Assembly (NCBI RefSeq): GCF_022095675.1
Contig: NZ_JAHYSG010000003.1
Span: forward strand, 195,180 to 259,179
DNA: 64,000 nucleotides
Direction: 5' to 3'
From: Dactylosporangium sp. AC04546
GTDB taxonomy: Bacteria > Actinomycetota > Actinomycetes > Mycobacteriales > Micromonosporaceae
A program made the translations under genes and the position numbers. Shown in pieces: positions 11,300 through 43,163 of the stretch. Below the pieces are notes generated by a model. It was given only the letters and a program-made list of their open reading frames with translations. It did not search any database and was not told where the DNA came from. How positions within the stretch are numbered: position 1 is the first letter of the stretch; every line of letters begins with the position of its first letter.

Positions 11300-12442
11300 T
11301 CAGACGGGGCCGATCCGTGCCGCCAGCCTGGGGAACAGTCGCAACGCGTTGCCCCGGTTGATCGCCGACCAGGCGGCGCGGTTCAGCGCGGGATCCCGGT
11401 CGAGGTCGTCGGTGATGACGCCGACCTCACCGTACGGGCGCGAGGCGTAGTCGGTGCCGTAGAGGATCTGGTCGGAGCCGACGGCCTTCAGGAGCGTCGG
11501 CATCGAGTACGGCGAGGCAGGCTGCGCCGTGTCGTAGTGGAATCGGCGCAGAGCCCGGTGGAAGCGGGCAGGGTCGACGAACTCGCCCTGCCGGCCCTGC
11601 GACTCGGCCCGTCCGGCCAGGTACGGCAGAAACCCGCCGGCGTGCGACAGGATGATCGACAGGTCGGGATGACGATCGAGCGTGCCAGACACGATGAGGT
11701 TCAACGCCGCCCGGGTGGAGTCGAACAGAAAGTCGGCCAGTGAGTTCGGCACTCCCGGCAGCACGAAGTTGGTGTCGGGCAACGCGTCCGGATGGATGAA
11801 CACCACCGCGCGGCGCCGGTTCAGCTCCGCGAACAATGGCTCGAACGCCGGGTCGCCGACGTACTTCCCGCCGGCGCTCGTCATGAGGATGACACCGTCG
11901 GCGCCGAGCGTGTCGAAAGCGTACCGAACCTGCTCCATGGCCAGATCCGGGTGCAGCGGTGCCACGTTGGCGAAGAACCCGAACCGCGTCGGGTGCTCGG
12001 CCACGACCCGGGCGTACGACTCGTTGCATACCCGCACCCCTTCTTCGGCAAGCGCGCGGTTCGCAAAAGCGATGGACGGCACCGGGGCCGAGAGCACCGC
12101 CGTCCCGATGTGGTTTTTGTCCATGAGTCGCAGCGCGTCGACGACCGTCCAATCTGCCCACTCCGGCCCGGCTTCCGGATCCGCCGGCAGCAGACCGCGA
12201 CCGACCGCCCACCGCCGCAGGTCCTCCGGCAGACCGTGGTGATGGGTGTCGATCCTCATGACCGGTCGTCTTCCATCACTGTCGGCCCACGCCATCGGGC
12301 CGGCCACCAGCCCGATGCCACCCGCCACGGTAGCGGCGCCCGCGGTGCCCAGGACCGCTCGGCGGCTTATCGATGAACCCACTGCTGACCTCCAAAAGTC
12401 TGGTACCGATCCGGATCGCACTTCCGGCCGTTTGCGAAGCAT
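11300..12442 (-). CDS. Tat-exported amidohydrolase (amidohydrolase_2 superfamily)
   Basis: A 380-residue TIM-barrel metal-dependent hydrolase of the amidohydrolase-2/ACMSD-like group. After the signal the metal motif 'RIDTHHHGLP' gives HxH. Further ligands are expected at 'VVFIHPDAL', 'IILSHAGGFLPYLAGR' and the aspartate in 'ILYGTDYA'. The N-terminus has a long n-region, then 'SISRRAVLGTAGAATVAGGI', a twin-arginine signal followed by a hydrophobic stretch, so export is likely. The ATG at 12442 overlaps the stop of the preceding gene as TGATG, which supports this start despite the long leader. Substrate unknown; relatives act as decarboxylases or lactone/amide hydrolases on small carboxylic acids. 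Confidence 0.85.
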   Translation of the reverse strand: MLRKRPEVRSGSVPDFWRSAVGSSISRRAVLGTAGAATVAGGIGLVAGPMAWADSDGRRPVMRIDTHHHGLPEDLRRWAVGRGLLPADPEAGPEWADWTVVDALRLMDKNHIGTAVLSAPVPSIAFANRALAEEGVRVCNESYARVVAEHPTRFGFFANVAPLHPDLAMEQVRYAFDTLGADGVILMTSAGGKYVGDPAFEPLFAELNRRRAVVFIHPDALPDTNFVLPGVPNSLADFLFDSTRAALNLIVSGTLDRHPDLSIILSHAGGFLPYLAGRAESQGRQGEFVDPARFHRALRRFHYDTAQPASPYSMPTLLKAVGSDQILYGTDYASRPYGEVGVITDDLDRDPALNRAAWSAINRGNALRLFPRLAARIGPV

Positions 12443-27615: not shown

Positions 27616-27763
27616 CCGGATACCGTCGCACATCGTGCCCGTCGTCACCCGGCGACGGCGCTCACGCCGAGTCCTGTGCGATGCGGTGGCGAGCGCGCCC
27701 CGACGCGTCGCGGCGTCGCCGGTGCCGGTCGCGGCTCAGCCGTGCCCGGCACCGGCCAACATT

Positions 27764-28521
<758 letters not shown>

Positions 28522-28525
<4 letters not shown>

Positions 28526-29547
28526 GCGTTGCCTCCGCAGTCAATGAGGACTTTCACGTCACCGCCGGTCTCGAGGGCAGCGAATGCGTCGGCAACGTGT
28601 TCCAGCGGTACGATGCGGGAGATGAGTCGGGCGGCTGGCACGTGTCCGGCGTGCACGAGTCGCACTGCCGCTTCGTAGTCTTCGCGTTGGTAGACCCGAA
28701 CGCCGACGATCTCCAGCTCCCGCCAGAAGACGCGGTGCAGGTCGACCTCGCGGGCTTTCGGGTGGATGGCCACAACGACGAGGCGGCCGCGGACAGCGAG
28801 TAGTTCGGTGGCCAGTCGCACACCAGCGACGGAGCCGGAGACCTCGAAGACCACGTCGGCGCCGGCGCCGCCGGTCCTTTGCTGAATTTGCGCCGCGACA
28901 TCGGTTGTCTGCGGATCGAGCGTCGGCAGTCCCAGCTGGGCGGCCACGGCGCGACGGTGGGGGTCGAGCTCCAGGACGGTGACCTTGGCTCCGGTGGCCT
29001 GGGCGACCTTGCCGATGAGCAGTCCGACCGGGCCGGCGCCGATGACGACGGCGGACTCGCCTGCGGTGAGCCGGGACCGGCGGACATCATGTACTGCGAC
29101 GGCGGTCGGCTCGATGAGGGCGGCGTGTTCCAGCGGCAGGTCCTCGGGCAGCCGGACCAGGATGTCCGCCGGGACGGTCCAGGACTGCTGCATTGAGCCA
29201 CTTGAATCGATGCCGATGAAGTTCAGCCGGTGGCAGATGTGATTGTGGCCAGCCTCGCAGGCTGGGCACTCGCCGCACCAGGCAAGCGGCATCACGGTGA
29301 CCGGGTCGCCCGGTGCCCAGCCGGTGACATCGTCGCCAACCTCGGCGATTCGGCCGGACATCTCGTGTCCGATGACGGCGGGCCGTTGGACGCGGTGGTC
29401 CATGGCGCCGTGCAGGATGTGCAGATCTGTGCCGCAGATGCCGGTGTATGCGACGTCGATGCGGACCTGTCCGGTCCTGGGTGGCACGCGTTCGGTGTTC
29501 TCGACGGTGATGGTGCGTTCGCCGGCGTAGTGGGCGGTTCTGGTCAT
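28522..29547 (-). CDS. Zinc-dependent alcohol/polyol dehydrogenase (MDR superfamily)
   Basis: A 341-residue medium-chain dehydrogenase. 'GICGTDLHILHG' carries the catalytic zinc cysteine, 'VIGHEMSGRIAEVG' the GHE zinc/proton-relay motif, and 'CGECPACEAGHNHIC' the structural zinc cysteines. The Rossmann signature is in 'VVIGAGPVGLLIGKVA'. It resembles L-threonine/sorbitol/galactitol dehydrogenases. The ATG overlaps the mutarotase stop and the stop overlaps the SDR start, so it is locked into the deoxy-sugar operon. It may oxidise a sugar or a keto-deoxy acid in parallel with the SDR; the step is not fixed by sequence. Confidence 0.85.
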
Positions 29548-29879
29548 GCTGTCTCCTCATTCAGGTGCCAGACCTCCTGCATCGGCGCCCACCAGTGCCC
29601 GGAGCCGGGTTCGGCGAGAGACTCCTGGCATGGATCGGTCAGCGTCCACCATTGTCTGGTGCGAGGGTCCGCCGCGATGCGTGCCTGGTCGGCCTCGTGG
29701 TCGTCGCCGACGTACTCGTAGTAGCCGACCAGTAGGTCGCCGTGCAGGAAGATGGAGTAGTTACGGATGTTGGCTCGAACAAGCATCTGTTCGACGTCCG
29801 GCCATACCGATCGGTGCAGCAGCAGGTACTCCTGCCGCCGCCCGGGCCGCAGCCGGATGAGCGAGCAATAACGCTGCAT
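29544..29879 (-). CDS. Deoxy-sugar mutarotase (RhaM/FucM-like, DUF718)
   Basis: A 111-residue L-rhamnose-mutarotase-family protein, small and cytosolic: 'RLRPGRRQEYLLLHRSVWPDV', 'IRNYSIFLHGDLLVGYYEYVGDD' (two segments) with the catalytic-site His and Tyr, and the C-terminal 'WHLNEE' characteristic of the family ('VFHL(D/N)'). It converts alpha and beta anomers of a 6-deoxy-hexose. It is flanked by an aldose dehydrogenase that needs the beta-pyranose, which makes L-fucose mutarotase the likely job. One base separates it from the AKR stop. Confidence 0.85.
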   Translation of the reverse strand: MQRYCSLIRLRPGRRQEYLLLHRSVWPDVEQMLVRANIRNYSIFLHGDLLVGYYEYVGDDHEADQARIAADPRTRQWWTLTDPCQESLAEPGSGHWWAPMQEVWHLNEETA

Positions 29880-29880
29880 C

Positions 29881-30819
29881 TCAGGCCTTCCTGTTGTTCT
29901 CGGGCCGGCCGCTGGGCCAGGCATAGCCGAGGACTGGCGCGAGAACCTTTTCAATGTCGACGAGCAGTTCGGGATCCGTCGGCTCCAGCGCCCAGCGAAC
30001 GTTGCGCGCCATATTGCTGGGGCTGGCGGAACCGACGAAGGTGGTGGCGAATGCAGGAGGCTCGGCAGCGAACCGGACGGCAACCTGGGCGATGTCGGTC
30101 CCGCGATCGGCGCACAGACGCGCGGCGGCTGCGGACGCCTCGCGGACGGCCGCGGGGGCCGGGTGCCAGGGCGGCGCACCACGCTGGGAGAGCAGGCCCA
30201 TGCCGAGCGGGGAGGCGTTCATGACGGCGGTCCCACGTGCGGCAAAGTGCGGCACGGCCTCGAGCAATGCCCGATCGAGCAGGGTGTAGCGGCAGTAGGA
30301 CAAGACGGTATCGACTGGGACCTCGGCGGCAACGTGGGTCAGGGCTTCGAGGGGGTAGCCGGTGATGCCGACGAAGCGGACTTTGCCCTCCTCCTGCAGG
30401 CGGCGCAGAGCTGGGAGCGCCTCCGCGGCAACCTGGCCGAGGTCGCCGAACTCGATGTCGTGGCACTGGATGATGTCGAGGTGATCGGTGCCGAGCCGGG
30501 CTAGGCTCTCCTCGACGCTCGCGACGACGCGGGCAGCGGAGAAGTCGAAGGCGTCCTCACCGTAGCGTCCGACCTTCGTCGCCAGCATGTAGCTGTCCCG
30601 ATCGATGCCGTTCAGGGCGCGGCCGAGGACGGTTTCGGCGACGGTCGCGCCGTAGTAGGGCGAGACATCGATGATGTTCACCCCAAGGTCGAGTGCGGTA
30701 CGCACCGCGCGGATACCGGCGTCCTGGTCGATCGGCGCGAAGACGCCGCCGAGCGGCGAGGCGCCGTATCCGAGCATCGACACGCGCAGCCCGGTTGCGC
30801 CGAGTGTGCGGTACTGCAT
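29881..30819 (-). CDS. Aldo/keto reductase, L-fucose (D-threo-aldose) 1-dehydrogenase-like
   Basis: A 312-residue AKR: 'LGYGASPLGGVF' opening, Asp/Tyr of the active site in 'DVSPYYGATVAETVLG', Lys in 'LATKVGRYG' and His in 'IIQCHDIEFGD'. 'FDFSAARVVASVEESLARLG' and the C-terminal 'ATTFVGSASPSNMARNVRWAL' match L-fucose/D-arabinose dehydrogenases. The ATG at 30819 opens the operon AKR-mutarotase-ADH-SDR. A palindrome (30837-30849) sits directly upstream and the regulator gene is divergent. The expected product is the L-fucono-lactone, which the hydrolase at 31683 would open. Confidence 0.87.
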   Translation of the reverse strand: MQYRTLGATGLRVSMLGYGASPLGGVFAPIDQDAGIRAVRTALDLGVNIIDVSPYYGATVAETVLGRALNGIDRDSYMLATKVGRYGEDAFDFSAARVVASVEESLARLGTDHLDIIQCHDIEFGDLGQVAAEALPALRRLQEEGKVRFVGITGYPLEALTHVAAEVPVDTVLSYCRYTLLDRALLEAVPHFAARGTAVMNASPLGMGLLSQRGAPPWHPAPAAVREASAAAARLCADRGTDIAQVAVRFAAEPPAFATTFVGSASPSNMARNVRWALEPTDPELLVDIEKVLAPVLGYAWPSGRPENNRKA

Positions 30820-30836
30820 GGGAGTCGCGCCTTCCT

Positions 30837-30849
30837 GACATCTGATGTC
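30837..30849. promoter_or_regulatory. Regulon palindrome GACATCTGATGTC (AKR promoter)
   Basis: A 13-base palindrome (arms GACATC/GATGTC about a central T), 18 bases before the AKR ATG and in the divergent interval with the GntR gene. A weaker form, TCATCTGACGT, occurs at 30912-30922 nearer to the regulator start. It is the same motif found before the other fucose genes. Confidence 0.7.
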
Positions 30850-30963
30850 TACTCGTTTCGGCCCGGGAGATGCTGAGCTGTGCGGGGGAACCCCGGACCA
30901 CGGTCGACGATTCATCTGACGTGGGAGATAAGATGGCGGCTCTGGCGGGTGGAGGAGGCCGGT

Positions 30964-31707
30964 ATGGCACTGACGGATGATGCGATCGCGAAGATCCGCG
31001 GCATGATTCAGTCCGGCGCGCTGCCGCCCGGGGCCCGGCTGCCCACCGAGCAGCAACTGTCGGTGCAGATGGGCATCTCGCGCAGCGGGGTCCGCGAGGC
31101 GGTGAAGGTGCTCGAGGCGGCCCGCGTCCTCGACGTCCGCCGAGGCGACGGCACCTACGTGACAAGCCTGGCTCCGCGGCTGCTGCTGGAGGGTCTCGGC
31201 TTTGCCCTTGAGCTGCTGCGCGATGACACGCTGCTGGAGGTCATGGAGGTGCGCCGCATGCTGGAGCCGGTCGCCACCGGTGTGGCTGCCTTGCGCATCA
31301 CCGACGAGGATCTCGACGAGCTCAGCAAGATTCTCGACGACATGCGCAGCGCGGCCGACGACGCCGAGCGGCTTATTCAGTACGACACGGCATTCCACCG
31401 CACTGTCACCGCGGTCACCGGCAATGAGACGTTGACCTCGCTGCTCGACGGCCTGTCCGGGCAGACCCTGCGGGCGAGGGTGTGGCGCGGGCTTATCGAG
31501 GGCAACTCGTCGCACATCACGCTCGCCGAGCACGAGGCGATCTATCGCGCGCTGCGTGATCGCGACCCTTTGCTCGCCCAGGCGAGTGCACTTATGCACG
31601 TCAATACTTCGGAATCGTGGCTGCGGGCGGTGCTTGCAGTGCCGCCGGAGGAGCCGGCCGAATCCGTCGCACCGCGACGGAGTCAACGGTCCACCACCAA
31701 TCCGTAA
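30964..31707 (+). CDS. GntR-family regulator with FCD domain
   Basis: A 247-residue FadR-subfamily regulator. The winged helix spans 'ALPPGARLPTEQQLSVQMGISRSGVREAVKVLEA' (read in two parts) and 'VRRGDGTYVTS'. The C-terminal all-helical FCD domain has 'RRMLEPVATGVAALR', 'DTAFHRTVTAVTGN' and 'EHEAIYRALRDRD', whose Asp/His residues normally bind a metal and a sugar-acid or carboxylate ligand. It is divergent from the AKR operon and convergent with the lactone hydrolase, overlapping that gene's end by 25 bases. As the only regulator in the fucose block it is the natural reader of the repeated ATACATCtGATGTAT palindromes. FCD proteins commonly sense sugar acids. Confidence 0.88.
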   Translation: MALTDDAIAKIRGMIQSGALPPGARLPTEQQLSVQMGISRSGVREAVKVLEAARVLDVRRGDGTYVTSLAPRLLLEGLGFALELLRDDTLLEVMEVRRMLEPVATGVAALRITDEDLDELSKILDDMRSAADDAERLIQYDTAFHRTVTAVTGNETLTSLLDGLSGQTLRARVWRGLIEGNSSHITLAEHEAIYRALRDRDPLLAQASALMHVNTSESWLRAVLAVPPEEPAESVAPRRSQRSTTNP

Positions 31708-32540
31708 GTGCGCGCCGCCGTGCCGCCGAAGACCTCGTCCCACGCAGGCGGCGGCAGCACCTGCTCGAGGGCGATGCGGACGTCGCCATAGCTGGCGGCG
31801 AGCAGACAGACAGGCCAGTCGGAGCCGAACATCAGCCGGTCGGCGCCGAACTCGGCGACGGCGACATCGACGAAGGGCCGCAGCTGCTCGTGCGTCCAGC
31901 CGGGGCCGGCCTCGGTCACCATGCCGGACAGCTTGCACGTCACATTGGCGTTGCCGGCCAGATCGGTGAACGGCCCGCGCCAGTCGAGCAAACCCGCCGC
32001 GCCTTCGTCGATGCGTGGCTTGCCGAGGTGGTCGAGGACGAGGCGCAGCTCGGGCACGGCGGCGGCGGCCCGGGCCGCCGCCGACAACTGGTCGACCCGG
32101 ATGACCAGGTCGAACGCAAGGCCGGCGGCTGCCACCGTAGCAAGCCCGCGCCGCACATCGGCCCGGTCGAGATATGCCGGATCCGCCTCACCCTGCACCT
32201 GCGATCGAATCCCGACCAGCAGCTCACCGCCACGCAGCCGACAGAATCCCGCGATGGTTGCGGCCAGGTCGGGATCTGCCACGTCAGCCCATGCCACCAC
32301 TCCAACGATCTCCGCAGTGTCCGCGGCGTAGCCGAGGAACTCGGCGGCCTCATCGACATGGCAGCGACCGCCCTCGACCAGCACGGTGCGGTCGACTTTG
32401 GCAGCGGCGAGTTCAACCCGTAGCTCGTCGGGGGTGAAAGCGCGGCGGATGCCGGCCAACGCGGGGTCGTTCAGCCACGTGTAGCCGCGTTCGGGCCGCC
32501 ACAGATGGTGATGTGCGTCGACGATCACTCGGCCGCCCAC
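31683..32540 (-). CDS. Amidohydrolase-family lactonase, L-fuconolactone hydrolase-like
   Basis: A 285-residue amidohydrolase_2 protein beginning '[19 protein letters not shown]' with the HxHxW signature of the L-rhamnono/L-fucono-lactonase group, then '[14 protein letters not shown]', '[13 protein letters not shown]' and '[14 protein letters not shown]', which complete the metal and substrate site. It overlaps the dehydratase gene by 16 bases and is co-transcribed with it. It would hydrolyse L-fucono-1,5-lactone made by the AKR to L-fuconate. Fuconolactonase is favoured over rhamnonolactonase by the neighbouring fuconate-dehydratase-like enzyme and fucosidases. Confidence 0.87.
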
Positions 32541-33823
32541 TCCGGTCCTTCGGGAAATCGGTACGCCGTCAGCGACTCCGCCACGATCTGCGCGCTCATG
32601 CCGGGCGCGGTGGGCGCCAGGTAGCGGCCGCCGCTGATGCGCACCGGATGGACGAAGTGCTCGTGCAGGTGGTCGACGTACTCGATGGCCCGGTTCTCTG
32701 TCGTACCGCTCACTGCGACGAAGTCGAACATCGCCAGGTGCTGCACGAGCTCACACAGCCCGACACCGCCGGCATGCGGGCACACCGGCACACCGAACTT
32801 CGCGGCCAGCAGCAAGATTGCCAGGTTCTCATTCACGCCACCGACCCGGCAGGCGTCGATCTGCACGACGTCCACGGCGCCGGCCTGCAGGAGCTGTTTG
32901 AACATCACGGCGTTGTGCACGTGCTCGCCGGTCGCCACTTTGATCGGCGCCAGAGCCTTACGGACGGCGGCATGGCCGAGCACGTCGTCGGGCGACGTCG
33001 GTTCCTCGATCCAGTAAGGGTCGAACTCGCGGAGCTCGCGCATCCAGCCGATGGCGTCGGGCACGCCCCAGATCTGGTTGGCATCGACCGCGATGCGCAT
33101 CTTCGGGCCGACGGCCTCGCGAGCGATCGCCATGCGGCGCACGTCATCGGCGAGGCTTCCGCCGACCTTGAGCTTGATCAGCTCGTAGCCGTCCTCGACG
33201 GCCTCTTTGCACAGTCGCGCGAGCTTTTCGTCGTCATAGCCCAGCCAGCCCGGTGTGGTGGTGTACGCCGGGTAGCCCTCTCGCCGCAGCAGCTGTTCGC
33301 GAGCGTCGCGGTTGATGCTCGCCGCGCGCAACAACTCGAGGGCCTCGACCTCTGTCAGCGCGTCACGCAGGTAGCGGAAGTCGATCTGGGCGACGATCTG
33401 CTCCGGCGTGAGGTCGGCGAGCAGTTTCCACAGCGGCTTGCCGGCACGGCGGGCGGCGAGGTCCCACACCGCGTTGACGAGTCCACCGGCGGCCATGTGG
33501 ACCACGCCCTTCTCCGGCCCCAGCCAGCGGATCTGGCTGTCTCCGATGAGCCGGCGGGCCAGTGCCCCGGGGTCGGCGACGAGCTCGGCGACCGGCTGCC
33601 CAACGACCATCTCGGCGAGGGAGCGCACCGCGGCCACCTCGATCTCGGTGCCACGTCCCACCGTGAAGATCAGGCCGTGGCCCTCCGCGCCCTCGGTGGT
33701 ACGCAGCACGACGTAGGCGGCGGAGTAGTCCGGGAAAGGGTTCATCGCGTCCGAGCCGTCGCGGTGTCGGGACGTGGGGAACCGCACGTCGAAGGTGTCC
33801 ACGGACAGGATTGTTTCGGTCAC
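32525..33823 (-). CDS. Enolase-superfamily acid-sugar dehydratase, L-fuconate dehydratase-like
   Basis: A 432-residue mandelate-racemase-group enolase. The catalytic lysine motif KxK is in '[10 protein letters not shown]'. Metal ligands are in '[10 protein letters not shown]', '[11 protein letters not shown]' and '[10 protein letters not shown]', and the general-base histidine is in '[12 protein letters not shown]'. The N-terminal '[30 protein letters not shown]' (read in two parts) is characteristic of L-fuconate dehydratase. The GTG at 33823 was chosen because it has an AGGAG site 7 bases upstream and starts at the conserved region. It dehydrates L-fuconate to 2-keto-3-deoxy-L-fuconate. Confidence 0.9.
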
Positions 33824-33909
33824 AGCTGCTCCTGGGGATTGGTCCGGCGCCGCACAGCGGCCCGCGAATGCACGATGAGCCGCTGGCGGAAGCCGCGCTC
33901 GCTCATCCA

Positions 33910-33924
33910 CATACATCTGATGTA
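33910..33924. promoter_or_regulatory. Regulon palindrome ATACATCTGATGTAT (best match)
   Basis: A perfect 15-base palindrome about a central T, 87 bases upstream of the dehydratase GTG. It is the strongest copy of the motif and defines the consensus. It should control the dehydratase-lactonase operon. Confidence 0.75.
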
Positions 33925-34096
33925 TTTGTACCGCGGCGACCAGCCCTACGTCCAGTGCTCGGTTCCATTTGACCGTCTAGCAGCATCTTTTCCAGACTGC
34001 CACCGACCCGTCGCTCGCGATAGATCCTATGAATGTGGGATGGGGGCCGGATGCGCCCACTCGCACCCGGCCACCCACCCACTCTGGAACGACCGG

Positions 34097-35131
34097 TCAG
34101 GTCTGCACCTTGCCGCCCGTGATGCGCGACACCACCAACGCGACCAGGATGACCGTGCCGTTGAGGAAGTTGGTCCACTGCGCCGGCACGCCGGCGAGAG
34201 TCAAAACATTGATAATCATAAAAAGAAGCAGGATGCCGGTGAACGCACCGAATACCGTGCCCTTGCCGCCGTTGAGGCTGACGCCGCCGATGACCGCCGC
34301 GGCGAACACTTGGAAGATCGCTCCGTCACCTTGCGCCGCCGGCACCGCCGCGAGCCGGCCGGAGATGAGTAGCCCGGCGAGCGCGGCGAGCATGCTGGCG
34401 ATGATGAGCGTCAGCCACAGCACTCGGTCGGTGCGGATGCCAGCCGCACGCGCAGCATCGATGTTGCCGCCGATCGCGTAGAGTGCCCGGCCTGCTCTCG
34501 TGAACCCCAGCACGACGACCGCCACGGCGAAGAGCAGCAGTGAGATCCAGATCGATGCCGGGACGCCGAGCCATGACGTGGATCCGAGGTACCGCATCGA
34601 CTCCGGGAGGGCGAAGAACGTCTTACCGCCGGACACGCCGGTCAGCAGGCCGCGCAGCACGATCAGCATGCCGAGCGTGACGATGAATCCGTTGAGCCCG
34701 AACCGTACGATCAACAGGCCGTTGAACGCGCCGACGAGGGCTCCCACGAGCAGCACCATGGGGATGGACAGTGCATCGGGCAGGACGTTGAGGCCGAGTC
34801 CGTGCGTCAACGCTGGGTCGACGATCAGCCAGGCCGCAATCCCCGGTGCCAGGCCGAACGTCGACTCGAGCGACAGGTCCATCTTGCCGGTGATGAGCAC
34901 CAGTGTCTCGGCGAGGACGACGATGGAGATCTCCGACATGCTCTGCAGCACGTTGATGATGTTGTCGGACTGCAGGAATACCGGGTTGACGATGAAGCCG
35001 ACGATCGCGACGGCGACGATCGCCGGCACCAGCGCCAGGTCGCGCAGGCGTGCGATCGCGATGGTCCGCCGTCTCGTGGCGGGCGGGGGCGCCGCCGACG
35101 AGGCGGTGGTGTCCAGAAGCGTGTCAGACAT
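34097..35131 (-). CDS. Sugar ABC transporter permease, RbsC type
   Basis: A 344-residue BPD_transp_2 permease with about nine or ten helices. Family marks are 'ETLVLITGKMDLSLESTFGLA', 'FGLNGFIVTLGMLIVLRGLLTG' (two segments) and 'GIRTDRVLWLTLIIASMLAAL', near the ATPase-contact region. It overlaps the ATPase gene by 8 bases and is the last gene of the three-gene importer. It would form a homodimeric channel for the monosaccharide, here probably L-fucose. Confidence 0.9.
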   Translation of the reverse strand: MSDTLLDTTASSAAPPPATRRRTIAIARLRDLALVPAIVAVAIVGFIVNPVFLQSDNIINVLQSMSEISIVVLAETLVLITGKMDLSLESTFGLAPGIAAWLIVDPALTHGLGLNVLPDALSIPMVLLVGALVGAFNGLLIVRFGLNGFIVTLGMLIVLRGLLTGVSGGKTFFALPESMRYLGSTSWLGVPASIWISLLLFAVAVVVLGFTRAGRALYAIGGNIDAARAAGIRTDRVLWLTLIIASMLAALAGLLISGRLAAVPAAQGDGAIFQVFAAAVIGGVSLNGGKGTVFGAFTGILLLFMIINVLTLAGVPAQWTNFLNGTVILVALVVSRITGGKVQT

Positions 35132-36668
35132 GGTCGAGATCGACCCCTTCCATGGCGGCTACCAGGTCGTTGTCGCGCCAGCCGGACGGCATCTCGCGCA
35201 CGACATGACCCTGGAACATGACCAGCACGCGGTCGCAGATACGCAGGTCGTCCAGCTCGTCGGAGACGACCAGCACGACGCTGCCGCGCTCACGCACGTC
35301 ATCGATGACGCCGAGCAGGGTCTGTTTCGAGCGCACGTCGACGCCGGCGGTCGGCGCGATGAGCACCAGCAGCTTCGGGTCACTGGCGAGGGCGCGGCCC
35401 ATCACCACCTTCTGCTGGTTACCTCCGGACAGGTCGGAGACCGGCACGTGTGGACCGGACGCCTTGATGGCCAGCGCATCGATGGTCCGGCGAGCGAAGG
35501 TGTCGCGCCGGGCCGGTGAGATGAGCCCGCCGGCGGAGATCCGGTCCGGCACGGTCATGGTGACGTTCTCCGCGATGGACAACAGCGGCACGAGGCCCTG
35601 GTGGTGCCGATCCTGTGGCACCAGACCGACACCGGCTGCAATCGCGTCGGGCACGCTGCCTGGCCGCACCCTTCGACCGTCGACGGTCACCGTGCCGGCA
35701 GCGGGCTTCGCCAGGCCGACAACGGCCTCGGCGACCTCGAGCTTGCCGCTGCTAGCTCCGCCGGCAAGCCCGACGACCTCGCCGGCCCGAGCTTCGACCG
35801 TGATCTCGGCACCGGATACGGTCCGTAGTTCATGGACCACCAGGCGGACCGGGGCGTCGGCGGACGGCGCAGGCCGGTGCGTCGCCTCGGGTAGGCTGAC
35901 GTCCTCGCCTGTCATCGCGGCGACCAGGGCCGCGCGGTCGAGCTGGGCCACCGGCGCGGTGATGATATGGCGCGCGTCGCGGAACACCGTCACCTGGTCA
36001 CAGATGTCGTAGATCTCCTGCAGGTGATGGCTGATGAACAGGAATGTGACGCCCTGCGCCCGTAGTGCCTCGATGCGCTCGAAGAGCCGGGCGATACCGG
36101 CACCGTCGAGTTGTGCCGTCGGCTCGTCGAGAATGATGAACCGCGCACCGAAAGACAGCGCCCTCGCGATTTCGACGAACTGCCGTTGCTCGACCGTGAG
36201 TGCCGACGCCGGCTGCTGGACGTCCACGTCGACCGACCAGGTGGCCAGTAGCTCTCGGGCGGCTCGGCGCAGCGCGCCCCACCGGATGAGCCGGGCTGGT
36301 CCGCGGTCGTGCCGATTGAGGAAGAGGTTCTCGGCGACGGTGAGCGTCGGGATGATGGTCGACTTCTGGTAGACGCACGCGACGTTGCGCCGCCACGCGT
36401 CTCGGTCAGCCAGGCCCGGTGCCGGGCGGCCAGCGAACGCGACACAGCCGGTGTCGGGCGCCTGGAGCCCGGTCAGGATGCTGACCAGAGTCGACTTGCC
36501 CGCGCCGTTGCGGCCGACGAGCGCGTGGGTCTCCCCCGGCCGCACGACGATCCCGGCGCCATCGAGGGCGACCGTCGATCCGAAACGTTTGGTGATGTTG
36601 ACGGCCTCAACGGCGAGCCGGTCGTCGCCGACCGGCCCGCCGATCGTGCCGCGCTGGTCGAGCGTCAT
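35124..36668 (-). CDS. Sugar ABC transporter ATP-binding protein, RbsA type (double domain)
   Basis: A 514-residue tandem ATPase. The N-half has Walker A 'GRNGAGKSTLVSIL', signature-like 'LTVEQRQFVEIARAL' and Walker B 'FIILDEPTAQLD'. The C-half has a degenerate P-loop ('GLAGGASSGKLEVAEAVVG'), signature 'LSGGNQQKVVMGRAL' and 'LLVLIAPTAGVDVRSK', where the usual 'DEPT' has become 'IAPT'. A weak second site is normal in RbsA/MglA/XylG proteins. The ATG overlaps the binding-protein stop. Confidence 0.9.
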   Translation of the reverse strand: MTLDQRGTIGGPVGDDRLAVEAVNITKRFGSTVALDGAGIVVRPGETHALVGRNGAGKSTLVSILTGLQAPDTGCVAFAGRPAPGLADRDAWRRNVACVYQKSTIIPTLTVAENLFLNRHDRGPARLIRWGALRRAARELLATWSVDVDVQQPASALTVEQRQFVEIARALSFGARFIILDEPTAQLDGAGIARLFERIEALRAQGVTFLFISHHLQEIYDICDQVTVFRDARHIITAPVAQLDRAALVAAMTGEDVSLPEATHRPAPSADAPVRLVVHELRTVSGAEITVEARAGEVVGLAGGASSGKLEVAEAVVGLAKPAAGTVTVDGRRVRPGSVPDAIAAGVGLVPQDRHHQGLVPLLSIAENVTMTVPDRISAGGLISPARRDTFARRTIDALAIKASGPHVPVSDLSGGNQQKVVMGRALASDPKLLVLIAPTAGVDVRSKQTLLGVIDDVRERGSVVLVVSDELDDLRICDRVLVMFQGHVVREMPSGWRDNDLVAAMEGVDLDHV

Positions 36669-37732
36669 GCGTTGTTGCCCCAGAGGGTTGCATCGTCGTA
36701 CTTCAGCGTCTTCTCCCCGCCGATCGTGACACCGTCGGCGGTGACCAGCGGTGCGGCGAGCTGGTCTTCCAGCAGGCCGTCACGGACCTGGATGATGGTG
36801 CTGTTGTGGTCGGTCGGGCCGGGCTGGAACGTCTTGCCCTCGATGCCGGCCTTGGCGTAGTAGAGGCCGTACTTCGCGAACAGGTCGGCCGGCTGACTGA
36901 CCGTCGCGTCGATGAGGCCTTCCTTGATGTTCTTGAGCTCCTCGGGGATGCCGTCGTTCGACACGATGAAGACGTGCTTCGGGTCGGTCGGGGCCACCTG
37001 CAGGCCCTTCTGCTTGAGCACCTGCAGGGTGCCCGACAGCGCGAAGGACGACTGCATGTAGATCCCCTTGATGTCCGGGTCGGACGCGAGGCGGGTCTGC
37101 AACTTCGACGCCGCCACATCGCCCTTCCAGTCGGTCGCCTCACCGAAGACGGTGATGCCGGGGAAGTCCTTCTTCATGCACTCGTTGAACGCCTCGGTGC
37201 GGTCCCGGCCGTTGATCGAGTCGAGCCCGCCCTGCAGCATCACCACCTTGCCCTTGCCGCCGAGCTTCGTGCCGAGAAACTGGCATGCCTTCGTGCCGTA
37301 GGCGCGGTTGTCCGCCCGGACGACCATGAACACCTTGCCCGTGTCGGGCCGCGTGTCGATCGTGACGACGGGGATCTTCTTGCTCGACAGCTGCTCGAGC
37401 GTGGGCGCGATCGCAGCCGTGTCTTGCGGCGCCATCACGACACCCTTGACACCCTGGCTGATGAAGGTCTGGGTGTTGGAGATGAGGCTGGCGATGTCGT
37501 TCTGCGAGTTCGTCGTCTTCAGCTCGACGCCGAGCTCCTTGGCCGACTGCGGCACGTACTTGATGTAGGAGTTCCAGAAGTCCGTGTCCGACCGTGGGTA
37601 GTCGACACCGATGAGCGGCGCAGAGCCGCCCGAGTCACCGCCGGACGACGAGTTGTCGCTGCAGGCGGTCGTCAACGCGGTGGCAGCGATCATGGTGAGG
37701 ACGCCGAGGCTGCGCAGGGACATGCGGTGCAT
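36665..37732 (-). CDS. Sugar ABC transporter substrate-binding lipoprotein (periplasmic-binding type 1)
   Basis: A 355-residue binding protein. The signal ends 'ATALTTACS' (lipobox, Cys24), followed by a serine/glycine linker. The fold is RbsB-like: 'PLIGVDYPRSDTDFWNSYI', 'GVKGVVMAPQDTAAIAPTL', 'KVVMLQGGLDSINGRDRTEAFNECM' (two segments). It is the first gene of the importer operon, with two regulon palindromes upstream. The neighbouring catabolic enzymes point to L-fucose as ligand. Confidence 0.9.
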   Translation of the reverse strand: MHRMSLRSLGVLTMIAATALTTACSDNSSSGGDSGGSAPLIGVDYPRSDTDFWNSYIKYVPQSAKELGVELKTTNSQNDIASLISNTQTFISQGVKGVVMAPQDTAAIAPTLEQLSSKKIPVVTIDTRPDTGKVFMVVRADNRAYGTKACQFLGTKLGGKGKVVMLQGGLDSINGRDRTEAFNECMKKDFPGITVFGEATDWKGDVAASKLQTRLASDPDIKGIYMQSSFALSGTLQVLKQKGLQVAPTDPKHVFIVSNDGIPEELKNIKEGLIDATVSQPADLFAKYGLYYAKAGIEGKTFQPGPTDHNSTIIQVRDGLLEDQLAAPLVTADGVTIGGEKTLKYDDATLWGNNA

Positions 37733-37876
37733 CAGTCTCCTTCCGGGAGCGCAATGGCGCTTCGCCGTCTACGAGGCAAGCCACGCGACGGCACGCCGGA
37801 CTAACCAGGCGGGGTGTCCTGGGGCGCTCCGCGATGGGGTATTTGAGGGGTGTGGTCAGACCGCCAACAGAGCGGT

Positions 37877-37891
37877 ATTCATCAGATGTCT
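37877..37891. promoter_or_regulatory. Regulon palindrome ATTCATCAGATGTCT (importer promoter)
   Basis: A near-palindromic copy, about 145 bases before the binding-protein ATG on the minus strand, matching the consensus with central A and outer-arm changes. Confidence 0.6.
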
Positions 37892-37974
37892 TTATAGATC
37901 AGACCCCGGAGGATGTCCAGACACCCCGGAACATCCCAGCTTGCACGCGCATCGCTCATTCCCTCCGGGCCGTG

Positions 37975-37985
37975 TCATCAGATGA
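37975..37985. promoter_or_regulatory. Regulon half-length palindrome TCATCAGATGA
   Basis: A perfect 11-base core palindrome in the interval between the importer and the first GH29 gene. It may act in both directions. Confidence 0.5.
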
Positions 37986-38108
37986 ATCCACCCGATCAGG
38001 GCAATGGGGGCGGCCGCTCCTCCTCGTCGCGCCCCAGCGAGGCCCGCGGCGCCCGCGACCGGAGCCAGCCGCGCTGGCCACAACGCCAGAGTGTTGACAT
38101 CGGCACTG

Positions 38109-38123
38109 ATTCATCTTATGTTT
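38109..38123. promoter_or_regulatory. Regulon palindrome variant ATTCATCTTATGTTT
   Basis: A degenerate copy with the TTATG right half also seen before the second GH29 gene, about 170 bases before the GH29 ATG, close behind a TTGACA sequence (38094-38099). Confidence 0.5.
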
Positions 38124-38238
38124 CGTCAACGTTACGGCGGGGACCGCCAGCCCGCCCTCTCCAACGACTAGGCGCAACCAGCGGCAGAACTACTATGCCG
38201 CCCCAGTCCCGCATGAGCGCACCACCTCGTCGCGGCTT

Positions 38239-38253
38239 CATTGATCAGATGTC
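38239..38253. promoter_or_regulatory. Regulon palindrome variant near the first GH29 start
   Basis: CATTGATCAGATGTC carries a good right half (GATGTC) and a weaker left half, 40 bases before the GH29 ATG, where a bound protein would block transcription. Confidence 0.4.
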
Positions 38254-38292
38254 GATGTGCCGCGATTGACACCCTCTGAGGAGCCGACTCTC

Positions 38293-40194
38293 ATGCACCA
38301 CAGCCACACTCCAGGCCTGCCACGACGCGACCTACTGCGCCGCACCGCGATCGTCGCCGGCGCCGCCGTCGCCGGACCTCTGGTGACCGCCGCCGAACCC
38401 ACCCACGCCGCCGTCATTCCGCCCGGCGGCAACCTGCAGCAGGCGCAACAGCGCTTCGTCGACCTGCGGTTCGGCATGTTCATCCACTTCAACATGGGCA
38501 CCTTCCACGACGCCGAGTGGGTGCAGCCCGACCGCGACCCACTGACGTTCAACCCGACAGCCCTCGACTGCGGGCAATGGGCAGCTGCGGCCAAGTCAGC
38601 CGGCATGACGTTCGGCGTGCTCACCGCCAAGCACCACGACGGCTTCTGCCTCTGGCCCAGCGCACAGACCACGTACAACGTCATGAGCAGCTCGGTCCGC
38701 CGCGACGTCGTCCGGCTCTACGTCGACGCCTTTCGCGCCGCCGGCCTACAGCCCGCCCTCTACTTCTCCATCTGGGACCGCAATCAGGGCGTCGCGAAGG
38801 ACTCGATGTCGGCCGCCGACATCGCCTTCGTCAAGGCCCAGATCACCGAGCTTCTGACCGGCTACGGACCCATCCCAGCCCTCGTCATCGACGGCTGGGC
38901 CTGGCAGATGGGCCACCGTCAGGCCCCCTACGGTGAGATCCGTGACCACATCAAGGCGCTGCAACCCGACATCATCCTCGTCGACCACAACGGCCAGACC
39001 GAGCCGTTCGAAGAAGACGCCATCTACTTCGAGGAACCCAAGGGCATCTGGGCACCGGTCGGAAACACGTACGCCTGCTGCCAGGGTCAGAACATCGTCA
39101 ACACGGGCTGGTTCTGGCACCCCTCGACTCCCAATGCCACGCCGCTGAGCGCCGACAACATCGTCAACGGCCACCTCAGAGTCCTCGAGTCCCGGTACTG
39201 CACGTTCATGCTCAACTGTCCGCCCAACACAGCCGGTCAGCTCGACGCCAACATCGTCAACAGGCTTCGCGAAGTTGGTCCACTGTGGACGCCAAACCTC
39301 GCCAGGCCTGCGCTGCCTGCTCAGCCAGACGTCCTCGACCACGTCGTCACACCCGTCGCGGTGACATCAACCAGCGGCACCGCTACCAACGCCATCGACG
39401 GCATCCTCGACTACACCAGCCGCCCCGTGCAGACGCTCTGGCAGTCGACCGGCGCGCTACCCCAATCGGTAACACTCGACCTCGGCGCGGTGTATTCAAA
39501 CCTCGACATGCTCACATGCCTGCCCCGCCAGGACGGCACCACGACCGGCAACATCACCTCGTACCGCATCCTCGCCAGCACCGACGGCGTCACCTACACG
39601 CAGATCACCGCCGGCGCCTGGTCCGCCGACAAGACCCTCAAACGCGCGTCGTTCCCTCCGTTGCGCGCCCGCTACCTCCGGCTCGAAGCTGTCGATGCGG
39701 TCGGCGGCAGCGTAGCGGTCGTCAGCGAGATCGACTGCGGCGGCGTCGCCGCCCGACCGGTCAGCGGCGGCACCGGCTACTGGAACCTCATCAACCGCAA
39801 CAGCGGCAAGGCATTGGACGTCACCGCCGCATCGCTCGACAACGGCGCGCCGGTCATCCAATGGACCAGCACGAACGCAACCAATCAGCAATGGCAGCTC
39901 GTACACGTCGGCGCAGGGTACTGCAAGCTCATCAGCCGCCACAGCGGCAAGGTACTCGACGTCACAGGGGCCTCCACGGCCGACGGTGCTCCCGTCATTC
40001 AGTGGACCGACACCACCAGCGCCAACCAGCTGTGGAAACTGGTCGGCGTCGGCGACGGTTACCACAAGCTCGTCTGCTACCGCAGCGGCAAACTGCTCGA
40101 CGTTACCGGCCCGTCAACCAGCAACGGAGTGCAGGTAGTGCAATCGGCCGACCACGGCACCGCCAGCCAGCAGTGGCGGCTGACCAACGGCTGA
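38293..40194 (+). CDS. Secreted GH29 alpha-L-fucosidase with F5/8-type-C-like and ricin-type domains
   Basis: A 633-residue exported enzyme. The twin-arginine signal is 'LPRRDLLRRTAIVAGAAVAG'. The GH29 barrel follows: 'RFGMFIHFNMGTFHDAEW', 'LTAKHHDGFCLWPS' and 'PALVIDGWAWQ', whose Asp is the expected nucleophile. From about residue 350 a discoidin (F5/8 type C)-like sandwich contains 'SVTLDLGAVYSNLDML'. The last 130 residues are a ricin-B-like trefoil with repeats of 'LINRNSGKALDVT...QW', 'LISRHSGKVLDVT' and 'LVCYRSGKLLDVT'. The ATG at 38293 precedes the Tat signal and has a GAGGAG site upstream. It releases L-fucose outside the cell; the lectin parts should hold it to the polysaccharide. Confidence 0.9.
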   Translation: MHHSHTPGLPRRDLLRRTAIVAGAAVAGPLVTAAEPTHAAVIPPGGNLQQAQQRFVDLRFGMFIHFNMGTFHDAEWVQPDRDPLTFNPTALDCGQWAAAAKSAGMTFGVLTAKHHDGFCLWPSAQTTYNVMSSSVRRDVVRLYVDAFRAAGLQPALYFSIWDRNQGVAKDSMSAADIAFVKAQITELLTGYGPIPALVIDGWAWQMGHRQAPYGEIRDHIKALQPDIILVDHNGQTEPFEEDAIYFEEPKGIWAPVGNTYACCQGQNIVNTGWFWHPSTPNATPLSADNIVNGHLRVLESRYCTFMLNCPPNTAGQLDANIVNRLREVGPLWTPNLARPALPAQPDVLDHVVTPVAVTSTSGTATNAIDGILDYTSRPVQTLWQSTGALPQSVTLDLGAVYSNLDMLTCLPRQDGTTTGNITSYRILASTDGVTYTQITAGAWSADKTLKRASFPPLRARYLRLEAVDAVGGSVAVVSEIDCGGVAARPVSGGTGYWNLINRNSGKALDVTAASLDNGAPVIQWTSTNATNQQWQLVHVGAGYCKLISRHSGKVLDVTGASTADGAPVIQWTDTTSANQLWKLVGVGDGYHKLVCYRSGKLLDVTGPSTSNGVQVVQSADHGTASQQWRLTNG

Positions 40195-40204
40195 CCGCTT
40201 GTAG

Positions 40205-40243
40205 CTCAGCTCTCCGCATCCGCGACGAATGCGGAGAGCTGAG
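40205..40243 (+). terminator. Perfect 15-bp hairpin after the first GH29 gene
   Basis: CTCAGCTCTCCGCAT (40205-40219) pairs with its exact complement at 40229-40243 around a 9-base loop, 10 bases past the GH29 stop. No T-run follows, as is usual for actinobacterial terminators. Confidence 0.75.
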
Positions 40244-40299
40244 GTCGGCGTGAATGACGGGGTCCCGGCCGGCCTCGACGGCGACGCCTTCGACACGGC

Positions 40300-40511
40300 A
40301 GCGACCTCGCGCGGTCCGTGGCCCTCGGCGACGATGGTGCCGTCGGCGACGCGGCCGGAGAGCTCGAGTGCCGGTGACGAAACGGCCGGGGTACAGCCGA
40401 GCGAGCCGCGGGCTGGAGTCCTTCATGGACGGCAGCATTCCCACTCACCGGTTCCTCGGCGACGTGATCGAAGCAGCGTCCGCGGCCAATGTCGTGGTGA
40501 CGCAGCGCTGA
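40300..40511 (-). pseudogene. Deleted copy of an LLM-oxidoreductase gene, with a sugar-gene scrap
   Basis: Bases 40300-40370 are almost identical to 53505-53574, and 40369-40406 to 53790-53827, both inside the LLM oxidoreductase gene at 53173. The 215 bases between them are missing here. The minus-strand reading 'LARLYPGRFVTG' is retained. From 40405 to 40511 the plus strand reads 'SRGLESFMDGSIPTHRFLGD' and ends with a stop, resembling the tail of a Gfo/Idh/MocA-type dehydrogenase (low confidence). From 40512 to 40755 nothing was recognised. Confidence 0.6.
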
Positions 40512-40755
40512 CCCCCGACGGGTCTCGTGACTGCTCCGCCGGTTCCGCCTTCATGGCCGGTGGGCGTCCCCGGAGGCTCGGCGAGCGGCGGGTGGCAAAC
40601 AGCAGGAGAGCGGCCAGCAGCGCAGGGTCACGTAGCAGAAGCTCCGGCTGCAGATTCCGCTCCCGAGGTTAACAGTCCAACCGTAGACGCATCGAGGCAT
40701 TCGACTCGCTGACACCGGTAGGTCAGCGACGCTGCAGACAGCCCACGGCACACAG

Positions 40756-40770
40756 ATACATCTTATGTAT
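40756..40770. promoter_or_regulatory. Regulon palindrome ATACATCTTATGTAT (second GH29 promoter)
   Basis: A copy differing from the best site (33910) at one base, about 145 bases before the second GH29 ATG. Confidence 0.7.
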
Positions 40771-40853
40771 TAACGTCATCACCATCTCGGTCCGGGTGAA
40801 TTATCTTGATCTGCCAGCGAGTTTGATCATTGACGACCATCATCGGCCCGCTT

Positions 40854-40866
40854 AACATCAGATGCC
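40854..40866. promoter_or_regulatory. Regulon palindrome variant AACATCAGATGCC
   Basis: A second, weaker copy 50 bases before the second GH29 ATG. Two sites about 98 bases apart could bind cooperatively. Confidence 0.5.
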
Positions 40867-40915
40867 TGGCGCCCGCCGCGCCATCGGATACACCCCACAC
40901 AATGGAGGAACCTCC

Positions 40916-42904
40916 ATGTCCCGCTCCCCATTCACCCGGCGGTCGTTCCTGATCGCCCTCGGCGCCGCTACCGCCGCCAGCTCGAGCGAACTGTTGCGTG
41001 CGGCCCCCACCATGGCTGCCATCCCCGGACCGACGAGCTACTCCGCCACTTGGGCGTCGGTCGACCAGCACCCGCCAGCGCCGGAGTGGTTCCAGGACGC
41101 CAAGTTCGGCATCTACTACCACTGGGGCGTGTTCAGCGTCCCTGCGTACGGCAACGAGTGGTATCCGCGAAACATGTACTTTGACGGATCGGGGCCGAAC
41201 AACCACCACAAGGACGTCTATGGCGATCCGTCGGTATGGCCGTACCACAACTTCATCAACGGCGCGCGCGACAAGGCTGGCAACTTCGTGCAGTTCGCGC
41301 CGAAGCTGCGGTCGGCTGGCGGCACCTTCGACCCCAACGAGTGGGCGCAGCTATTCGCGGACGCCGGCGCCAAGTTCGCCGGGCCGGTGGCCGAGCACCA
41401 CGACGGCTTTTCCATGTGGAACAGCAGCGTCAACGAGTGGAACTCTGTTGCCAAGGGACCGAAGCTCGACCTGCTGCGGCTGCACGCCGACGCGATCCGC
41501 GCCAAGGGCCTCAAGCTGTTCGTTGCGCTGCACCACGCCTACAACTTCACCGGGTTCTACGAACGGGTGCCCGCACAGTCCGACCCGAGCCTCAAGAAGC
41601 TCTACGGCCAGCTCGACACCGCCGCGGAACAGCAGCTGTGGTACGACAAGTTGCGCGAGGTTATCGACGGCTACCAGCCAGACATCCTCTGGCAGGACTT
41701 CAACCTGGACCACGTCGACGAATCGCAGCGGCTGAAGTTCCTGTCGTACTACTACAACCGTGCGGTCGCCTGGGACAAGGAGGTTGTCGCCACCTACAAG
41801 GACGGCTTCAACAACAATGGTGAAGTCTACGACTTCGAGCGCGGTGGGCCAGCCGACATCCTGATCCCCTACTGGCTCACCGACGACAGCGTCTCCAACT
41901 CCAGCTGGTGCTACACCGTCGGCATCGGCTATTACTCGCTCAGTCAGATGCTGCACTCACTGATCGACCGCGTCAGCAAGAACGGCAACATGGTGCTCAA
42001 CATCGCTCCGATGGCCGACGGCACCATCCCGTCCGGGCAGCGCACCGTCCTGCTGGGTATGGGCGACTACCTCAAACGGTTCGGCGAGTCCATCTATGCG
42101 ACCCGCGCTTGGAGCGCCTTCGGCGAAGGCCCCACCCAGATGGGTGGTGGATCGTTCACGGCCCCACGGGCCGGCACCGCGCAGGACATTCGGTTCACCC
42201 GCAGCAAGGACAATCGAGTCCTCTACGCGACGATCCTCGGCTGGCCGGGCAGCACGGTCAACATCACCACGCTGTCCTCGAGCCGGATCAATCTCGGCAC
42301 ACTGACCTCGGTGCAGCTGCTCGACTCCACCGCGGGCACATACATCAACCTGCCCACACGCACCCAGGATGGCAGCGGGTTGCGCATCACCATGCCGTCG
42401 AGCAGTGCACCGTACAGCGCCCCGGCCTACGTGGTGAAGCTGACCTTCTCTGGGACGATCCCGGTGCTCGGCGGCGTTGGCGGTGTCCCGACCGGCTGGG
42501 TGCGGATCGCCAACGTCACCACTGGTCTGGTGCTCGACAGCGGCGGGAACGTCGCAACCGGATCGCGGCTGAAGCAGTGGAGCTGGGACAACAGTTGGAA
42601 CCTGCAGTGGCAGCTGGTGGACGTCGGTGGCGGTTGGTACCGGATCGTGAACCGCACCAACGGGATGGTGGCCGACAGCTGGGGCAACACCATGAACGGT
42701 GCGACCGCGATGCAGGCGCCCTGGAACGGCGGGAACAACCAGCAGTGGCGGCTCAACAGCATGGGCAACGGCCGCTACCAGATCATCAACCGCGGCACCG
42801 GCACCGCCCTTGACGGTATGGGCAATAGCACCGTCGGCTCCACCGTCTGCATGTGGACGCCGAACGCCCACACCAACAACCAGTGGACCATCACCAGCCT
42901 CTGA
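40916..42904 (+). CDS. Secreted GH29 alpha-L-fucosidase with C-terminal ricin-type domain
   Basis: A 662-residue exported enzyme with Tat signal 'PFTRRSFLIALGAATAASSS'. The GH29 barrel shows 'AKFGIYYHWGVFSVPAYGNEW' (two segments), 'AEHHDGFSMWNSSV' and 'DILWQDFNLDHV', with the likely nucleophile Asp in 'WQDF'. 'SKNGNMVLNIAPMADGTIP' is the usual GH29 end-of-barrel motif. After a beta-sandwich, a ricin-like trefoil has 'VANVTTGLVLDSGGNV'-type repeats and QxW motifs ('WQLVDVGGGWYRIVNRTNG', 'QQWRLNSMGNGRYQIINRG'). GGAGG precedes the ATG. It is separate in sequence from the first GH29, so the two may differ in linkage preference. Confidence 0.9.
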   Translation: MSRSPFTRRSFLIALGAATAASSSELLRAAPTMAAIPGPTSYSATWASVDQHPPAPEWFQDAKFGIYYHWGVFSVPAYGNEWYPRNMYFDGSGPNNHHKDVYGDPSVWPYHNFINGARDKAGNFVQFAPKLRSAGGTFDPNEWAQLFADAGAKFAGPVAEHHDGFSMWNSSVNEWNSVAKGPKLDLLRLHADAIRAKGLKLFVALHHAYNFTGFYERVPAQSDPSLKKLYGQLDTAAEQQLWYDKLREVIDGYQPDILWQDFNLDHVDESQRLKFLSYYYNRAVAWDKEVVATYKDGFNNNGEVYDFERGGPADILIPYWLTDDSVSNSSWCYTVGIGYYSLSQMLHSLIDRVSKNGNMVLNIAPMADGTIPSGQRTVLLGMGDYLKRFGESIYATRAWSAFGEGPTQMGGGSFTAPRAGTAQDIRFTRSKDNRVLYATILGWPGSTVNITTLSSSRINLGTLTSVQLLDSTAGTYINLPTRTQDGSGLRITMPSSSAPYSAPAYVVKLTFSGTIPVLGGVGGVPTGWVRIANVTTGLVLDSGGNVATGSRLKQWSWDNSWNLQWQLVDVGGGWYRIVNRTNGMVADSWGNTMNGATAMQAPWNGGNNQQWRLNSMGNGRYQIINRGTGTALDGMGNSTVGSTVCMWTPNAHTNNQWTITSL

Positions 42905-43163
42905 CTCCTACGGTCTGACCACGACGACCGCGCGGAGCGGCGGCTGATCGCCTGGGTGGCATGCCGGGACGGGCGGCCACCAATTCGTGCGGAGGGTTCA
43001 CAAACTACCTCCTCGACCCCCGCACTGGCGGCGCCAGCCGAAGGCTGTCGGGACTATCTCGTAACGCTATTCAGACAGTCCAGATCCAGGCGCATGCGAG
43101 ATCTCCCGGACTGGCTCCGGCAATTGCGGCAGCCGCAACGCATCCGGCGTATGCGCCGCCCGG

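Follow-up and report, generated by a model that had tools for sequence, protein, structure and literature searches.

The specificity of GntR regulators, a widespread group, is difficult to predict. Here we analyzed a putative GntR regulon of the soil bacterium Dactylosporangium sp. AC04546, encoded in a 64,000-nucleotide stretch of contig NZ_JAHYSG010000003.1 (positions 195,180 to 259,179; hereafter, the window); it comprises an L-fucose utilisation block spanning 27.7–42.9 kb of the window, a regulator gene within it (30964..31707, plus strand), and a family of short palindromes in the promoter gaps of the block. DgoR of Escherichia coli, a FadR/FCD-type GntR regulator of D-galactonate utilisation, has the same domain pair and is likewise associated with a sugar-acid pathway; its metal-site residues D146, H150, and H195 align with D141, H145, and H190 of our regulator, and PDB 7c7e was the second-best sequence hit. 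In the excerpts available, DgoR binds inverted repeats overlapping its promoter and is listed among the readers of GT-N3-AC; the palindromes described here are only predicted operators, have AT in place of GT, and accompany an L-fucose pathway. FucR, predicted for Halomonas and others, is similar in that its predicted sites lie at L-fucose/L-fuconate loci with oxidative pathway genes, but it comes from other phyla, and the comparison extends to the loci alone, not to the family or the motif (PMC5507952, in the portion available). The DNA complexes of VanR/Atu1419 and FadR represent a related fold with a winged helix-turn-helix (wHTH) and a short palindrome, and their Arg45 corresponds to R40 here. 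However, Arg45 contacts G, while our sites have A at this place of the GT box, and a G-to-A change is reported to have abolished the binding of VanR (PMC7797058, excerpt).

We consider it probable, at roughly 0.8, that the palindromes are the operators of the FCD/GntR regulator, which would act as a dimeric repressor of the FadR subfamily released by a sugar acid of the pathway. Nine sites were found in the window; the family reported at these positions in the first-pass annotation was borne out, with coordinates (here, the starts of 15-mers, given without strand) shifted by 0–2 bases. The best site, ATACATCTGATGTAT (33911..33925, matrix score 30.7), lies upstream of the dehydratase-lactonase operon. 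Operator TGACATCTGATGTCT (30836..30850, score 21.9) is centred 23 bp upstream of the start of the aldo/keto reductase (AKR) gene and is kept in Dactylosporangium sucinum and other relatives. Operator ATTCATCAGATGTCT (37877..37891, score 25.4) was located about 150 bp upstream of the binding-protein gene of the sugar importer, and TGTCATCAGATGAAT (37973..37987, score 18.4) 96 bp from it, in the gap between the importer and the fucosidase gene GH29a. Upstream of GH29a were also ATTCATCTTATGTTT (38109..38123, score 20.6), positioned over the -10 box of a predicted sigma-70-like promoter, and, just before the gene, the weak operator ATTGATCAGATGTCG with one degenerate half-site, GATC (38240..38254, score 13.2). 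The second fucosidase gene, GH29b, was preceded by ATACATCTTATGTAT (40756..40770, score 24.3) and TAACATCAGATGCCT (40853..40867, score 16.3), the latter over the -10 box of a predicted promoter. The weak operator ATTCATCTGACGTGG (30910..30924, score 11.8), 40–54 bp upstream of the regulator start, is a one-sided GACG variant, and the relatives L062 and L065 have GACG too.

The motif was nearly exclusive to the block. With up to three mismatches to ATACATCTGATGTAT, eight strand matches at five places were found in the window (100 shuffles: mean 0.11, maximum 2). All seven occurrences of CATC[A/T][G/T]ATG in the window were in promoter gaps of the block, and seven of the eight places matching WNNCATCWKATGNNW in the whole genome (13.02 Mb) were in the block as well; the backward pattern gave no match. 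The earlier claim that the motif is confined to block promoters therefore holds, and nothing like a similar density was seen elsewhere, with one WNNCATCWKATGNNW match outside the block genome-wide. That eighth match (C15:116348) was considered as a regulon member and rejected because it lies between a short-chain dehydrogenase/reductase (SDR) gene and a thiolase gene, with an AMP-binding gene near; it is probably due to chance. The scoring matrix was built from 16 sites of other genomes chosen by the core CATC[AT]GATG, with our genome and its 97% sibling excluded. At a score of at least 16, it recovered seven block sites, against a mean of 0.13 per window and a maximum of 2 in 200 first-order random sequences. 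A further hit at 34019 (score 10.6) was left out of the site count.

The regulator (247 aa), the likely reader of the palindromes and putative repressor, carries SRSGVRE at residues 39–45, the start of the recognition helix. Its N-terminal GntR wHTH domain (PF00392, 62.7 bits) and C-terminal FCD domain (PF07729, 98.1 bits) both scored above cut-off, placing it in the FadR subfamily with FCD domain of the GntR superfamily. In the AlphaFold model (predicted local distance difference test, 82.2; predicted template modelling score, 0.62), the best PDB fold match was 6az6 (GntR), and NanR, VanR, DhdR, and FadR were among the 50 matches listed. The putative operator ACAT-N3-ATGT has the 3-nt gap between half-site boxes of the FCD subfamily. 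The place of FadR Arg35 is taken by Gln in our protein and by P, Q, A, or H in its clade, according to the alignment. Two alignments, of 12 and 27 sequences with the window protein among them, were invariant at residues D141, H145, H190, and H212, which correspond to the Asp/Asn and the three His residues of the FCD metal site (roles according to the available part of PMC7674646). Because of this invariance, a metal-bound sugar acid, L-fuconate or 2-keto-3-deoxy-L-fuconate, is a plausible ligand, held as in DgoR (same source).

The nearest named relative with the block was D. sucinum (L093), the regulator of which is 97% identical to ours. In orthologous blocks of relatives, the palindrome was found in the same gaps. 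Allowing one mismatch at most, we counted occurrences of ACAT-N3-ATGT in the 400 bp preceding the genes of the block. The count covered the window's clade, with the window itself among its 25 loci and two entries each for D. sucinum and D. vinaceum. The shell was present upstream of the first genes: GntR in 20/25, AKR in 8/9, importer binding protein in 15/19, GH29b in 5/7, and GH29a in 3/3 loci. For the dehydratase it was found in 8/20 loci, a low figure likely explained by the position of this gene after the importer in several genomes. Other genes had it less often (alcohol dehydrogenase (ADH) 4/15, RhaM 3/11, SDR 3/15, lactonase 1/16), and the internal ATPase and permease genes had none (0/19 each); the backward shell gave four matches over all 178 upstream stretches of the clade. 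Operon-starting genes carry the palindrome, and internal genes are mostly without it. A search for dyads upstream of block genes detected ACATnnnATGT in 14/24 loci of the window's clade and 31/71 of the next clade, with 0 for the backward control in both, and the inner three bases of the shell vary by clade.

The exact form ACATCWGATGT (W, A or T) was searched for in eight relatives and was absent from two of them (G026 and G009), in which the best sites were one-sided variants. The other six had it at 21 places, 20 of which were by block orthologues, GH29-like genes, or the orthologous regulator. The remaining place, an exact ACATCTGATGT at about 8488 of L334 (G005 C126:186487), has no fucose-block orthologue within about 7 kb. 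In two sister genomes, the operators follow the fucose genes onto other contigs: G005 has a GH29b gene, importer, dehydratase, and three shell sites on C129 and the regulators on C81, and G006 has a GH29b gene with its site on C42 and the regulator on C66, although different contigs are no proof of chromosomal distance. The earlier description of the regulon as local is thus right for our genome but too narrow for G005 and G006. Contig C81 of G005 encodes two regulators with the SRSG helix (L058 11782–12465 and L059 3086–3790), each adjoining fucose genes.

A second system was found in the same genome. Contig C102 encodes another FCD regulator, 52% identical to that of the window and with the helix SRNSLRE instead of SRSG, beside SDR, AKR, and lactonase genes; GCATCCGATGT is located upstream of the SDR gene. 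On a separate contig, C97, a dehydratase gene (64% identity of the product) is followed by genes for a binding protein, ATPase, and permease (63, 60, and 59%), and ACATCGGATGT is centred 38 bp upstream of the dehydratase; it has the same ACAT-N3-ATGT shell with a G/C centre instead of A/T. G002 and G006 share this arrangement, and G005 has its importer. The C102 regulator would control the C97 operon. Viewed as one family, the palindromes of the block are as first described, with the correction that they belong to a wider ACAT-N3-ATGT family, of which the second, paralogous system uses ACATCSGATGT (S, G or C). To compare the two systems, sites within 450 bp of their genes were tabulated for the nine genomes examined, with identities of at least 68% assigned to the first system and 48–68% to the second; more distant sites, for example the one at the C102 operon, do not appear in this table. 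The first system had 29 W-centred sites and 1 S-centred site (seven genomes), and the second had 6 S and 0 W (five genomes). The exact ACATCSGATGT occurred at four places in our genome, two of them tied to sugar genes (the C97 operon and an SBP_bac_8 gene on C20); the places on C88 and C31 had no tie to sugar genes. The C20 gene (L178, 8311–9678), encoding an SBP_bac_8 sugar-binding protein with ACATCGGATGT at its 5' end, is a possible member of the S-centre regulon.

The inner bases of the operators were compared with the recognition helix in a pool of 216 loci with 235 regulator genes, which includes near-duplicates, only three having been dropped (in the tree, for example, L138 is identical to L243 and L170 to L244). 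At least one exact shell was present within 8 kb of 100/235 regulators. At these sites, the inner triplet was mostly C-W-G with SRSG (23/29), C-S-G with SRNS (34/35), mostly CCC or CGC with SRNL (39/56), and ATG or CAC with SRSP (6/7). Upstream of the 235 regulator genes, 165 shell matches with one mismatch allowed were found vs. 3 for the backward control. Exact sites combined with one-mismatch sites upstream of the regulator covered 129 regulators, among which, with ties left out, Ser41 occurred with an A/T centre in 26/36 and Asn41 with a G/C centre in 83/86 (Fisher p 3e-15, relatedness ignored). The form CnG was found with Gly or Ser at residue 42 in 59/65 and with Leu, Pro, or Ile in 1/59 (p values likewise ignore relatedness). 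Residue 41 aligns with the base-contacting FadR Thr46, a position for which the published text available reports a correlation with the bases flanking the centre, Asn preferring A/T; here, Asn goes with G/C, and therefore the trend differs from the published one. The co-variation of residue 41 and the central base supports the earlier proposal that the 30964 protein is the likely reader, though without significance on independent pairs. The loci L062, L097, L098, L100, and L101 have the one-sided variant ACGTCCGATGT upstream of GntR, with a changed shell base and a G/C centre despite Ser41.

The weak sites 38240 and 30910 are individually not significant because chance alone would give about 0.4 and 0.7 hits per window at their scores (13.2 and 11.8); their position in promoter gaps speaks for them. 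Several results weigh against the assignment of the palindromes to this regulator. The boxes typical of FadR-subfamily operators, GT...AC (TKGT-N3-ACMA; exceptions are named in the part of PMC4494728 available), were not found: eight of the nine window sites have AT...AT, and the weak 30910 site has AT...AC. No site was present within 400 bp for 12/20 orthologous dehydratases and 5/25 GntR genes, and none of the 11 genes tested at L096 had a site in front. In the dyad search, the GC-rich dyad GTCGnnnnCGAC was commoner in the window's clade than the shell (17/24), and the 14 dyads listed for a third clade (14 loci) included CATCnGATG (3/14) but not the shell. In the pool, 135/235 regulators were without an exact shell within 8 kb, and 10/36 Ser41 regulators had an S centre (exceptions include L299, L301, and L254). 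Five independent residue-41 pairs on supported branches gave 3.6 concordant, 0 opposite, and 1.4 without difference (sign test, median p 0.125, not significant; the test is unable to reach 0.05 with the independent pairs available), and the tree contained 14 changes of the centre base and 8 of residue 41 but only 1 of residue 42. Finally, only three promoter-like sites were predicted (0.7 expected), and the operators of the AKR, dehydratase, and importer genes had none; the support for a repression geometry is therefore weak.

The two systems suggest a broader scheme, to which we give even odds: a single genome would operate two L-fuconate-type pathways in parallel, both equipped with a separate dehydratase, ABC importer, lactonase, and FCD repressor and both derived from a duplication of the whole regulon. 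Their operators, sharing the shell ACAT-N3-ATGT, would be told apart by the central base pair of the odd palindrome, with Ser at residue 41 reading A/T and Asn reading G/C, and residue 42 (Gly/Ser or Leu/Pro) would set the two adjacent bases. For the FCD family, this would amount to a specificity code of two residues. Thus, the central base and residues 41–42 may keep the two systems apart. An unlikely alternative is shared control, in which the C102 paralogue or both regulators read the block operators without insulation, and the W/S difference is drift between old paralogues. The identical shells of the two systems, the S centres of the ten Ser41 regulators, and the lack of significance on independent pairs are in line with it; however, the centres sort by system in the table of nine genomes, a W centre was found in just 3/86 Asn41 regulators, and no independent pair went in the opposite direction.

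As to the mode of action, the overlap of the operators 38109 and 40853 with predicted -10 boxes and the AKR operator centred 23 bp from the start codon fit repression. It is rather unlikely that the regulator is an activator, or an activator and repressor in one, instead of a simple repressor. Several sites lie 95–280 bp upstream of starts, and paired sites 74–110 bp apart are common, making looping or activation possible; CitO, an FCD protein, is also described as inducing its genes. The -10 overlaps and the AKR operator speak against activation, as does the description of DgoR, NanR, and VanR, which are FCD or GntR proteins involved in acid catabolism, as repressors in the excerpts available. 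Helical phasing of the paired operators was considered and rejected: spacings of 74–75, 96–97, and 109–110 bp share no single phase, and therefore a looping model is not claimed.

Under the repressor model, a dimer of the regulator would, without inducer, occupy the ACATC-W-GATGT palindromes. Its targets, bound at the promoter or close to it, would be the AKR operon, the regulator gene, the importer, the dehydratase-lactonase operon, and the two fucosidase genes. Oxidation of L-fucose would then provide a metal-coordinated sugar acid (L-fuconate or its 2-keto-3-deoxy derivative) entering the FCD pocket, upon which the repressor would leave the DNA. The C102 paralogue (SRNSLRE) and the C97 operon would use the same shell with a G/C centre, insulated by the central base and residues 41–42. 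That the palindromes are instead a repeat element or RNA hairpins, since short dyad repeats may be mobile or function in RNA, is very improbable: seven of the eight places in 13 Mb are block promoter gaps, the 20 bp flanks of the nine sites are unlike (mean identity 0.27) while the cores are alike (0.70), none is found before the ATPase and permease genes, and the centre base co-varies with the recognition helix of the regulator.

The regulon is of a familiar kind, and the paired systems differing at the central base are a variant worth testing. Actinobacterial L-fucose use gains a candidate regulator and a candidate operator. The two systems also offer a natural test of how paralogous repressors separate near-identical operators, in which a single central base pair and two neighbouring residues can be exchanged in both partners; a compact residue-to-base rule, if true, would help to predict regulons and to design orthogonal sugar sensors. 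A literature search on the 11- and 15-mer operator forms gave no GntR operator among the matches listed (title and start of abstract), and searches on fucose, GntR, FCD, and specificity gave no account of this regulator or of a centre-base rule among the matches listed, RegPrecise being outside the search.

According to the domain scan, the AKR-RhaM-ADH-SDR operon, on the minus strand, starts with the AKR gene (29881..30819), likely encoding L-fucose dehydrogenase, followed by genes for a RhaM-type mutarotase (29544..29900), a zinc ADH (28522..29547), and a KduD-like SDR (27764..28525), the likely 2-keto-3-deoxy-L-fuconate dehydrogenase. Also on the minus strand are the genes of an amidohydrolase resembling L-fucono-1,5-lactonase (31683..32540) and of the dehydratase (32525..33823), firmly assigned as L-fuconate dehydratase by its 640 bits to 1yey. 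The lactonase and SDR belong to the right families with scores below the curated cut-offs (196 vs. 400 and 334.1 vs. 338.85 bits, respectively). The dehydratase of the oxidative L-fucose pathway (Xanthomonas type) was thus present; no gene for the last step (fumarylacetoacetate-hydrolase-like or aldolase) was found among the block genes scanned (27700–43000 of the window, 10 genes in the domain scan), the search being confined to the block. The minus strand further encodes the permease, ATPase, and binding protein of a ribose-type sugar ABC importer (34097..37732), and the plus strand encodes two alpha-L-fucosidases, GH29a with lectin and F5/8C domains (38293..40194) and GH29b with a ricin-type lectin domain (40916..42904).

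Directly upstream of the second dehydratase-importer operon, C97 (L180, 6350–9406) encodes a protein of 1018 aa in which the GH95-like, DUF7910, and crystallin domains are weak; it may hint at the substrate of the second system. Contig C67 (L177, minus strand) contains two further FCD GntR genes about 4 kb apart (6939–7766 and 11555–12391). A ACATCCCATGT/ACATGGGATGT site lies at the 5' end of each and represents another operator type.

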